In this document: in pieces, positions 1 through 5,240 of the stretch
Numbering within the stretch: position 1 is the first letter of the stretch
Layout: every line of letters begins with the position of its first letter
Assembly (NCBI RefSeq): GCF_003268885.1
Contig: NZ_QLSX01000002.1
Location: 336,280 to 400,279 of the forward strand
Origin: Onishia taeanensis
Lineage (GTDB): Bacteria > Pseudomonadota > Gammaproteobacteria > Pseudomonadales > Halomonadaceae
Direction: 5' to 3'
DNA: 64,000 bases
The notes under the pieces: generated by a model
The model's input: the letters and a program-made list of their open reading frames with translations, nothing else
The model's database searches: none
Told to the model about the DNA's origin: nothing
Made by a program: the position numbers and the translations under genes

Positions 1-2541
1 GAGGTGCTGCTGTTCTATCGGATGGGGGACTTCTATGAGCTGTTCTTCGACGACGCCAAGCGCGCCGCCGCCCTGCTCGACATTACCCTGACCCAGCGCG
101 GCCAGTCGGCGGGCAAGCCCATTCCCATGGCCGGTGTGCCCTACCACAGCGCCGAGGGCTACCTGGCGCGGCTGGTCAAGGCCGGCGAGTCGGTGGCGAT
201 CTGCGAGCAAATCGGCGATCCGGCCACCAGCAAGGGTCCGGTGGAGCGAAAAGTGGTGCGCATCGTCACCCCCGGCACCCTCTATGACGAGGCGCTGCTC
301 GATGCCAACCGCGACAACCTGGTGCTGGCCGCCTATCCGCGGGGCGAGACCTGGGGCATGGCCTGGCTGGAGCTTTCCAGCGGGCGCTTCAGTGTACTGG
401 AGGTCGAGGGCGAGGCCGAGATGCTCGCCGAGGTGCAGCGCCTCGACCCCGCCGAACTGCTGATTGCCGATAGCCAGGACCTTCCACCCTCGATTGCCGA
501 GCGCCGAGGCTTGCGCCGCCAGAGCGACTGGCTGTTCGATCTCGAATCCGCGACCCGCACTCTGTGCGACCAGTTCGCGGTACAGGACCTGCGCGGCTTC
601 GGCTGCGCCCACCTCGAGGCCGCCATGACCGCCGCGGGGGTGCTGATCGACTATGCCCGTGACACTCAGCGCTCCCAGCTGCCCCACGTGACCGCCATCG
701 GCGTCGAGAACCGGGACGACGCCGTGGTCATCGACGCCGCCAGCCGGCGCAACCTGGAGATCGACACCAACCTGGGCGGCAGCGGCGACAACACCCTGGC
801 CAGCGTGCTCGACACCACCGCCACCGCCATGGGCTCGCGGCTGATGAAGCGCTGGTTGAACCGGCCGCTGCACGACCGCCCGCGGGTGCTGGCCCGCCAG
901 GCCTCCGTGGCGCTGCTGCTCGACGACGAGGCCTTCGTGGCCCTGCGCGAAGACCTGAAGGCCATCGGCGACGTCGAGCGCATCCTGGCCCGGGTGGCGT
1001 TGCGCAGCGCGCGCCCCCGGGATCTGGCGCGGTTACGCGACGCCCTCAATGCCCTGCCCGGCCTCGAGGCGAGCCTCTCGGGCTTCGACGAGGGCACCGC
1101 GCTCGATGAGCTCAAGCGCCATATCCGCCCCTACCCTTCCCTTGCCGAGACGCTGACCCGGGCACTGGTCGAGAATCCGCCGGTGGTGATCCGCGATGGT
1201 GGCGTGATCGCCACCGGATATGACGAGGAGCTCGACGAGCAGCGGGGCCTGGCCGAAAACGCCGGTGACTACCTGATCCAATTGGAGGCTCGCGAGCGCG
1301 AGCGCACCGGCCTTGCCGGCCTCAAGGTCGGCTATAACCGCGTACACGGCTACTATATCGAGATTCCCCGCGCTCAGGCCCGAGAGGCACCGGCGGACTA
1401 TATCCGCCGCCAGACGCTGAAGAACGCCGAGCGCTTTATCATTCCCGAGCTCAAGGAGTTCGAGGACAAGGCGCTGTCGGCCAAGTCCCGAGCGCTGGGT
1501 CGCGAGAAATTGCTTTATGAAGCACTGCTCGACACCCTAGGCGCCGAGCTCGACGCCCTGCAGCAGTCCGGCAGGGCGCTGGCCAGCCTCGACGTGCTGG
1601 CAAGCTTCGCCGAGCGCGCCCAGGCGCTGGACTTCGTGCGCCCGACCCTCACCGAGGCACCGGGCATCAATATTCAGGGCGGACGCCATCCGGTGGTCGA
1701 ACATGTCAGCGAGGCGCCCTTCGTGCCCAACGACCTGGCCCTCGACGACAGCCGACGCATGCTGGTGATCACCGGCCCCAACATGGGCGGTAAGTCGACC
1801 TACATGCGTCAGGCCGCGCTGATCACCCTGCTGGCCCATACCGGCAGCTTCGTGCCCGCCGATGCGGCCGAGATCGGCCCGGTGGATCGCATCTTCACCC
1901 GCATCGGCTCCTCGGATGATCTGGCCGGTGGCCGCTCGACCTTCATGGTCGAGATGACCGAGACGGCCAACATCCTGCACAACGCCAGCGACAAGAGCCT
2001 GGTGCTGATGGACGAGATCGGTCGCGGCACCTCGACCTTCGACGGTCTGTCGCTGGCCTGGGCCAGCGCCGAGCACCTGACCCGCTCGCGAGCCTTCACG
2101 CTCTTTGCCACCCACTATTTCGAGATGACCGCCCTGCCCGATCAGGCGCCGGGCGTCGCCAACGTGCACCTGACCGCCGCCGAGCACAAGGACGGCATCG
2201 TCTTCATGCACCGGGTGGAAGATGGCCCGGCGAGCCAGAGCTATGGCCTGCAGGTGGCCCAACTGGCCGGGGTGCCCCAGCACGTGATCGCCCGGGCCCG
2301 CGAGAAGCTCGCCCTACTCGAACAGCAGGAAGTCGACCAGGGCCAGCGCCAGACGCCCCTGGCCGAGCCGGCAGCGGATAACGGTGCGAGTGTGGCGCCT
2401 TCGGCACCGGCGCCGCGCCAGGATGACCTGTTCGCCAGCACGCCGCACCCACTGCTCGACGAACTGGCCGGCCTGGATGTCGACGGTCTGAGCCCACGCC
2501 AGGCCCTGGAACTGCTTTATAGATGGCGCGAGAAGGTCTAG
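1..2541 (+). CDS. mutS: DNA mismatch repair ATPase MutS (5' end cut off by window)
   Basis: MutS recognises mismatches and small loops in newly replicated DNA and recruits MutL. The reading frame is open from base 1 and begins just before the [13 protein letters not shown] motif of the mismatch-binding domain I, so only the first 15-25 residues are missing. The Walker A motif GPNMGGKST lies near base 1775 and the Walker B/signature [12 protein letters not shown] near 2010-2045. The C-terminal linker is low in complexity, and the end (LLYRWREKV) matches the MutS dimerisation tail. The remaining 846 residues fit the usual length of about 855. The downstream ferredoxin gene is the usual neighbour in Pseudomonas-like genomes. 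Confidence 0.97.
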
Positions 2542-2867: not shown

Positions 2868-3191
2868 ATGACATTCGTCGTCACCGAAAACTGCATCAAG
2901 TGCAAGTACACCGACTGCGTGGAGGTCTGCCCGGTAGACTGCTTCTACGAAGGTCCCAACTTCCTGGTCATCCACCCCGACGAGTGCATCGATTGCGCTC
3001 TCTGTGAGCCGGAATGTCCTGCTGAGGCCATCTTCTCCGAGGACGAGCTCCCTGAGGGCCAGCAGGAGTTCATCGAGCTCAACGCCGAGCTGGCCGAGGT
3101 CTGGCCGAACATCGCCGAGAAGACAGACCCGCTGCCCGACGCCGAGGAGTGGGATGGCAAAAGCGGCAAGAAGGAACTGCTCGAGCGCTGA
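2868..3191 (+). CDS. fdxA: 7Fe ferredoxin FdxA ([3Fe-4S][4Fe-4S])
   Basis: This is a small soluble electron carrier of the Azotobacter FdI / FdxA family with 107 residues, the normal length. Cysteines 9, 17, 21 and 50 would bind the 3Fe-4S cluster, and 40, 43, 46 and 25 the 4Fe-4S cluster. The two CP motifs (Cys21-Pro22 and Cys50-Pro51) are intact. The acidic C-terminal half is typical of the family. GAGGAAG stands before the ATG as ribosome binding site. The gene is followed by a strong intrinsic terminator, so it is probably monocistronic. Its physiological partner cannot be told from the sequence. Confidence 0.96.
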
Positions 3192-3410: not shown

Positions 3411-3434
3411 AAAAAAGGCGACCCGAAGGTCGCC
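3411..3434 (-). terminator. Intrinsic terminator of the CsrB-like RNA
   Basis: On the minus strand a perfect 7-bp stem (3428-3434 with 3417-3423) with a 4-base loop is followed by six T residues. It fixes the 3' end of the small RNA. Confidence 0.9.
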
Positions 3435-3653
3435 CGCTCCTAGCCGTTCCTTGAGCATGTCCCTATGCTCGACTCCTGAGGTGACTTCCTTGCCCGGGAA
3501 CGACCTCCTGTCGTACCAGGCGCACCCGACTACCATCCCGTTGCATCCTGCCGGGAAAGCATCCTGCTTTCCCACATCCCACGCACAGTGTGGCCGCTAT
3601 GGCAGGGTTCTCAAGTCGGCCAATGGAGGAGAAGACACCCTGCTCCTTATGCA
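3411..3653 (-). ncRNA. CsrB/RsmZ-family CsrA-sequestering small RNA
   Basis: The minus strand carries 11 GGA motifs within about 240 bases (variants of CAGGAUG, AGGGAC and AAGGAAC). Several sit in hairpin loops. 3553-3573 forms an 8-bp stem with loop AGGAU; 3500-3514 a 5-bp stem with loop AGGAG; 3453-3470 a 6-bp stem with loop AGGGAC. The transcript would end at an intrinsic terminator (3411-3434). No protein frame is convincing. Multiple loop-presented GGA motifs are the hallmark of RNAs that titrate the translational regulator CsrA/RsmA. In Pseudomonas, rsmZ also lies next to fdxA, which supports the call. The 5' end is inferred from a putative -10, so it is approximate. The exact Rfam family is not decided. 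Confidence 0.82.
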
Positions 3654-3753: not shown

Positions 3754-3771
3754 TGTCGGTAATCTCTTACA
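3754..3771 (-). promoter_or_regulatory. Candidate GacA/UvrY upstream activating site
   Basis: Minus-strand sequence TGTAAG-N6-CCGACA compares with the known GacA site TGTAAG-N6-CTTACA. The first half is perfect and the second keeps four of six bases. It lies about 110 bases upstream of the inferred start of the CsrB-like RNA, separated from it by an AT-rich linker, as in Gac-controlled rsm genes. Confidence 0.5.
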
Positions 3772-3851: not shown

Positions 3852-3890
3852 CGTCTTACCTTTCATGTCATGTCACTGAGCGTAGCGAGC

Positions 3891-5240
<1,350 letters not shown>

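Follow-up and report, generated by a model that had tools for sequence, protein, structure and literature searches.

A predicted RsmZ-type CsrA sponge beside fdxA in Halomonadaceae and its expanded form in Cobetia

The minus strand from about 3581 to 3411 of the window (the whole stretch of DNA analysed, 64,000 nucleotides) is very probably an rsmZ orthologue, an RNA activated by GacA that sequesters CsrA. It is an ordinary-sized new sponge of the RsmZ type; the expanded form found in Cobetia is a newly described variant and the more interesting result. In the proposed mechanism, phosphorylated GacA at a palindrome ~190 nt ahead of the start would activate a dedicated promoter, from which a 171-nt non-coding RNA would be transcribed as far as an intrinsic terminator. 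CsrA dimers, the product of a single csrA 10 kb away, would bind the 11 GGA motifs of the RNA, several of which lie in conserved hairpin loops, and bound CsrA would be taken off its target mRNAs.

The fdxA–eno locus and the proposed CsrA/GacA circuit

Features of the locus, in window coordinates, are as follows.
4–2541, plus strand: mutS, upstream of fdxA.
2868–3191, plus strand: fdxA (ferredoxin), convergent neighbour of the RNA, as beside rsmZ.
3411–3581, minus strand: predicted sponge RNA, 171 nt with 11 GGA, its 5′ end placed from the promoter and its 3′ end from the terminator.
3416–3435, minus strand: intrinsic terminator, corresponding to helix 9 in the alignment of 16 sequences, where 99.2% of cells pair.
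3453–3470, minus strand: hairpin GAGCAT-AGGGAC-ATGCTC, GGA in the loop (helix 7), 5 of 6 pairs changing on both sides in relatives.
3500–3514, minus strand: hairpin ACGAC-AGGAG-GTCGT, GGA in the loop, inner part of helix 6.
3553–3573, minus strand: hairpin GGGAAAGC-AGGAT-GCTTTCCC, GGA in the loop, stem region covarying among relatives (helices 1–2).
3587–3592, minus strand: predicted −10 element CACACT, CACAAT in many relatives.
3609–3614, minus strand: predicted −35 element TTGAGA, 16-nt spacer to the −10.
3754–3771, minus strand: GacA-type palindrome TGTAAGAGATTACCGACA, degenerate in its second half and placed 157 nt upstream of the −35, likened to the rsmY/rsmZ upstream activating sequence (excerpt of PMC4353343).
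3827–3852, minus strand: terminator-like site after the end of eno and ahead of the control region of the RNA.
3891–5186, minus strand: eno (enolase), upstream neighbour, on the same strand as the RNA.

The initial annotation described 3411–3653 as an otherwise empty stretch, and fdxA (ending at 3191) and eno (ending at 3891) indeed do not reach into it. All three hairpins that it listed with GGA in the loop are present in the sequence, as is the intrinsic terminator at the end (3435–3416, minus strand). Its count of 11 GGA in about 240 bases holds for the predicted 171-nt RNA, between promoter and terminator; the minus strand of 3411–3653 carries 12 by direct count, the twelfth lying upstream of the promoter at 3646–3644, where the surrounding 35-nt stretch holds any GGA in only 6 of 16 loci. 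The length of about 240 bases was too great, the 5′ third being promoter region and the RNA about 171 nt.

Eleven GGA per 171 nt compares with a shuffle mean of 6.1 (0.34% of 5000 dinucleotide shuffles reach 11), and the RNA has the highest GGA density of all 171-nt segments on both strands of the 64 kb, two other places reaching 10. Density by itself is weak evidence, being only moderately unusual, so the case for the RNA is carried by conservation and covariation. Several results from the window genome count against the assignment. Folding of the single sequence was unexceptional (256 nt, z −1.17, with 22 of 200 shuffles folding equally well); a generic promoter scan returned no promoter at the locus, where CACACT makes a poor −10; the second half of the palindrome reads CCGACA, which is degenerate (as throughout the genus of the window, the half being near-perfect in other genera); and the degenerate pattern TGTARGN6CYTACA had no match in the genome. 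With one mismatch, TGTAAGN6CTTACA occurred at a single place in the genome, followed by at most 4 GGA per 171 nt, and no second sponge was therefore found by way of the palindrome, although diverged sponges may exist.

Both protein partners of the proposed circuit are encoded in the genome. The gene csrA gave one match, of 66 aa and ~10 kb from the RNA, and the frames between csrA (L179) and the RNA read as lysC, alaS, recX, recA, cinA, mutS and fdxA, the first five names coming from reading of the translations. NF007018 (PRK09483), which we take to be UvrY/GacA, had a single match above the cut-off of 280, at 286 bits. This match is followed by frames read as uvrC and pgsA. GacS, GacA and LadS are present in Halomonas, and in Halomonas anticariensis quorum sensing, exopolysaccharide and biofilm are under the control of the Gac system (excerpt of PMC7366521). 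The mimic sRNA (sponge) of H. anticariensis was entered as 'Unknown' in a table of the same review, and the RNA reported here provides a concrete, testable candidate gene for most of Halomonadaceae. No prior report of an RNA between fdxA and eno was found in the literature on CsrA, GacA and sRNAs of Halomonas and Halomonadaceae; Kulkarni 2006 may hold predictions.

Conservation, strand and competing explanations

A DNA search of 58 relatives gave matches in 24 genomes (28 rows). The order mutS, fdxA, RNA, eno was identical in 16 of the 28 rows, the window included; two further rows, from Cobetia, kept mutS, fdxA and eno as neighbours with a much larger gap, and the remaining ten were pieces of 23–37 bases, nine of them at the terminator. 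Of the 16 loci in which a pattern search located both the palindrome and the −35 (two from Cobetia included), 15 had them 155–159 nt apart. At L014 the distance was 178 nt and the promoter is doubtful; at L006 the palindrome has a one-letter change, and at L016 the promoter was not found by pattern.

This arrangement bears on whether the stretch could instead belong to the eno transcript, as its 3′ untranslated region or as an sRNA cut from it. Such an origin would agree with the position of eno, upstream on the strand of the RNA, and with the proposal elsewhere of a sponge from an mRNA leader (CsrR1 from the hfq 5′ UTR; excerpt of PMC9788540). We regard it as very improbable: a terminator-like site follows eno at 3852–3827, the conserved promoter and palindrome with their fixed spacing lie between that site and the RNA, and in genome G009 (L103) GGA-dense RNAs are predicted beside fdxA with eno absent from the 1500 bases read.

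For covariation, the 16 sequences were aligned (alignment A2), giving a consensus fold of 46 pairs. Of its 735 cells, 95.6% pair, against 32–56% when partners were slid by 1–3 columns, a control that favours the structure since the fold was derived from the same alignment. Eighteen of the 46 pairs change on both sides, compared with 7.9 by shuffle (0 of 500 shuffles reach 18; this control ignores the relatedness of the sequences). An alignment of this locus across Halomonadaceae was the check for conserved GGA-loop hairpins that the initial annotation had suggested. The strand of the RNA is fixed by G-U cells, 76 on the minus strand of the window versus 10 read on the opposite strand, and by paired cells, 95.6% versus 86.7%; the number of both-side pair changes, 18 versus 17, does not separate the strands and counts against.

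GGA triplets of the window RNA were conserved on average in 13.4 of 16 rows, compared with 9.5 for the remaining triplets ahead of the terminator. Eight of the 11 are present in 15 or all 16 rows and a ninth in 13; the two near the variable first hairpin are present in 4 and 6. GGA was predicted to be more unpaired than other G-rich triplets in all 18 core RNAs studied, two of which are from Cobetia. These repeated GGA, several of them in conserved hairpin loops, support an RNA of the CsrA-sequestering type, as originally proposed.

The same alignment bears on two further readings. A small protein might be encoded by one of the frames (63, 74 and 79 aa) that overlap the RNA stretch; these come from a mechanical list of open reading frames, alignment indels are not multiples of three, and the compensatory changes in stems speak against coding, which makes this extremely unlikely. 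Alternatively, the transcript could act by base pairing, as an sRNA or as an antisense RNA against the fdxA 3′ end, its GGA richness being incidental, as would suit its convergence with fdxA and the suggestion that Alcanivorax CsrR2, in a similar place, pairs with fdx mRNA (excerpt of PMC9788540). The predicted RNA stops at 3411, ~220 nt short of the fdxA reading frame, and what is kept is the GGA and the hairpin stems while the stem letters change, which favours protein binding over base pairing; a pairing RNA of this kind is therefore judged highly improbable. A double function, as sponge and by base pairing, is possible.

Relation to RsmZ, CsrB and other sponges

The initial annotation had named Rfam models CsrB and RsmZ as a check, and neither recognized the RNA. 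At gathering thresholds Rfam had no match to it, which counts against the assignment. RF00166 gave 14.3 bits (E 2.3) against a cut-off of 44, below membership, and its three matches in a search of the whole window genome all lay away from the locus, which also counts against. RF00018 had no match in this genome, while the E. coli positive control was detected. CsrB carries CAGGAUG-type repeats. Relatives scored higher with RF00166, at 39 (L103, g5), 26.3 (L092) and 24.8 (L101) bits, and one relative (L005) matched CsrC (RF00084) over its full length but weakly, at 28.8 bits with a cut-off of 61. A CsrC-like match in the window (32.6 bits) fell on the opposite strand, at the terminator of fdxA, and is not the RNA; at E up to 10, the best matches near the locus, to MIR8001, the CsrC 3′ end and STnc40 were set aside, all being at terminators outside the RNA.

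For the synteny, which the initial annotation had invoked, RF00166 was run on 24 genomes. It scored above cut-off at 9 places in 8 genomes, all of family f21 of the same order, which is probably Pseudomonadaceae. Seven of the 9 loci adjoin mutS and fdxA, and in those 7 the GGA-rich strand runs toward fdxA, convergent with it, so that this part of the claim is supported. A perfect GacA-type palindrome lies upstream in 4 of the 7 syntenic loci, 161–175 nt from the match (173 in the window); that it is found in only 4 of 7 slightly lowers confidence in the proposed explanation. The window RNA is likewise beside fdxA, downstream of mutS and directed toward fdxA, with a palindrome of the form TGTAAGN6CTTACA ~160–190 nt upstream whose second half is degenerate. 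On locus, orientation and control element it is taken as an rsmZ orthologue; by Rfam score it is not a member. The result points to an origin of rsmZ before Pseudomonas, and to distant rsmZ members that the Rfam model misses.

In Pseudomonas, rsmZ has fdxA, mutS, nlpD and rpoS as neighbours and the palindrome TGTAAGCATTCGCTTACT, and RsmZ has 8 GGA in 133 nt (excerpt of PMC4353343) or, in another report, 10 GGA (excerpt of PMC7911923). The window RNA resembles RsmZ/PrrB (RF00166) in its mutS–fdxA setting, convergence with fdxA, upstream palindrome and intrinsic terminator, and also in size class and GGA number (171 nt, 11 GGA). It differs in having eno on the far side, where Pseudomonas has rpoS and nlpD among the neighbours given in that excerpt, and in lying out of reach of RF00166. 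With CsrB of E. coli, which is under BarA/UvrY control (excerpt of PMC7366521), it shares the possession of many GGA. Unlike CsrB it has no RF00018 match in its own genome, and excerpted counts give CsrB 22 GGA and CsrC 14 (PMC11882849). The initial annotation had judged motif density and length closer to CsrB, perhaps marking an intermediate form. Size and motif number near those of RsmZ, the mutS–fdxA neighbours, the convergent orientation and the palindrome argue instead that the RNA is not an intermediate between RsmZ and CsrB; strong expansion occurs in Cobetia, not in the window genome.

Alcanivorax dieselolei CsrR2, an independent transcript by dRNA-seq with six unpaired GGA, has been proposed as a CsrA sponge (excerpt of PMC9788540). 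It resembles the window RNA in its place beside an fdx gene, to which it is divergent in that species; this likeness is by published description.

Distribution in Halomonadaceae and the expanded form in Cobetia

A model built for the RNA (R1) matched 247 of 275 family genomes at E ≤ 0.001. Across 390 genomes of the order the best non-family score was 32.3 bits among the matches listed; the tally at E ≤ 0.001 is thus inflated, and only matches at E ≤ 1e-14 were counted, in 231 of 275 family genomes. The 231 are matches anywhere in the genome, placement beside fdxA being confirmed for a minority. Sixteen weak genomes were dropped from the tally (G021, G137, G012, G007, G175, G179, G184, G194, G195, G196, G032, G009, G197, G201, G204 and G026). 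By the same non-family score, among the matches listed, R1 fails to reach Pseudomonas.

Where they were read, three g4 genomes, G184 (g19) and G012 (g8) lacked the RNA at the locus, with fdxA–eno gaps of 82–297 bp holding 0–3 GGA, so the RNA is not indispensable in the family. In g3, g13, g17, g22 and g24, neither eno nor a GGA-dense stretch with a palindrome lay within the 1500 bases read at fdxA. Two g16 genomes read were positive with R1 and did not have eno beside fdxA; the match there must sit elsewhere or further off. The gap in G022 (g18) is 685 bp with 6 GGA. In that genome (L099) a long tandem array of 7-base CCACCTG-type units, then one of CCAACAG type, stands between eno and fdxA.

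GacA palindromes were present in 18 of 25 genomes without a strong R1 match, including 13 of 15 from g4, with 1–3 per positive g4 genome; a reversed control pattern gave 0 in the same 15 genomes. All g4 palindrome sites were read: 10 GGA per 171 nt follow at L170, 9 at L160 and L174, and at most 7 at the others. Since most g4 palindromes are not trailed by GGA-rich DNA, GacA may have other targets in g4. The three palindrome sites of G184 are followed by at most 3 GGA per 171 nt. At L170 (G201), which is without the RNA between fdxA and eno, the palindrome precedes a GGA-rich stretch with a terminator-like end, possibly a different sponge.

Among g5 genomes, G009 (L163) has two tandem GGA-dense, sponge-like genes beside fdxA, each with its own palindrome and 13–15 GGA per 171 nt; the copy farther from fdxA scores 39 bits with RF00166 (cut-off 44). 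Stretches with 10–16 GGA per 171 nt also follow palindromes at L144 (G194), L146 (G032) and L165 (G196), all g5, and end in a common GGGCGGC-AGGCCGCCC terminator.

The long form was matched in 6 of 6 genomes of genus g7 (L068, L069, L070, L071, L072 and L177; in G068 in two pieces). Genus g7 is identified as Cobetia, a member of Halomonadaceae, by sequences that match C. amphilecti N-80 and C. crustatorum JO1 exactly. In the five measured directly the RNA is 705–724 nt with 34–40 GGA, the palindrome lies 157–159 nt from the −35, the sole run of at least 5 T closes the RNA, and stop-free stretches reach a maximum of 74 to 156 codons depending on the sequence; the sixth genome (G068) has 724 nt and 37 GGA. 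The Cobetia form is presumably one uncleaved transcript. To our knowledge, it would be the largest dedicated CsrA sponge. The CsrA-antagonising sRNAs Pf1–Pf3 of marine Pseudoalteromonas fuliginea have fewer GGA, 25, 21 and 9 (excerpt of PMC11882849). No sponge with more than the 25 GGA of Pf1 was found in published counts, drawn largely from open-access literature, and no literature was found on CsrA of Cobetia.

In the Cobetia form (five sequences) two terminal blocks, 55 nt at the 5′ end and 118 nt at the 3′ end, are similar to the short RNA; the insert measures 532–551 nt and carries 23–29 GGA. Block likeness was assessed by local comparison of 3 short with 2 Cobetia RNAs, global alignment with cheap gaps being smeared. 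The 5′ block beat all 500 shuffles in 6 of 6 comparisons with the short RNA, the 3′ block without its terminator beat shuffles in 3 of 6, and the middle in 0 of 6. The sponge linked to fdxA probably behaves as an accordion, with fixed ends (promoter, first GGA hairpins, last GGA hairpins and terminator) between which arrays of GGA hairpins are gained, the Cobetia insert taking a 171-nt-like RNA to 705–724 nt and 34–40 GGA. Cobetia contrasts here with the one g5 genome that has two tandem sponge-like genes and with the three g4 genomes that have none at the locus. The natural series from 171 to ~720 nt, and from 11 to 40 sites, makes CsrA titration against site number measurable.

Alignment of the six Cobetia sequences (A3) gave a consensus fold of 179 pairs with 97.5% of cells paired, versus 30–45% when slid, and 28 pairs changing on both sides, versus 1–7. 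G-U cells numbered 103 against 5 on the other strand. Twenty-four GGA positions are common to all six RNAs, and of 20 consensus hairpin loops 13 have a GGA in each of the six. Many of these loop GGA are in a CAGGA(U/C/A)G setting, near the SELEX consensus RUACARGGAUGU (excerpt of PMC7652899).
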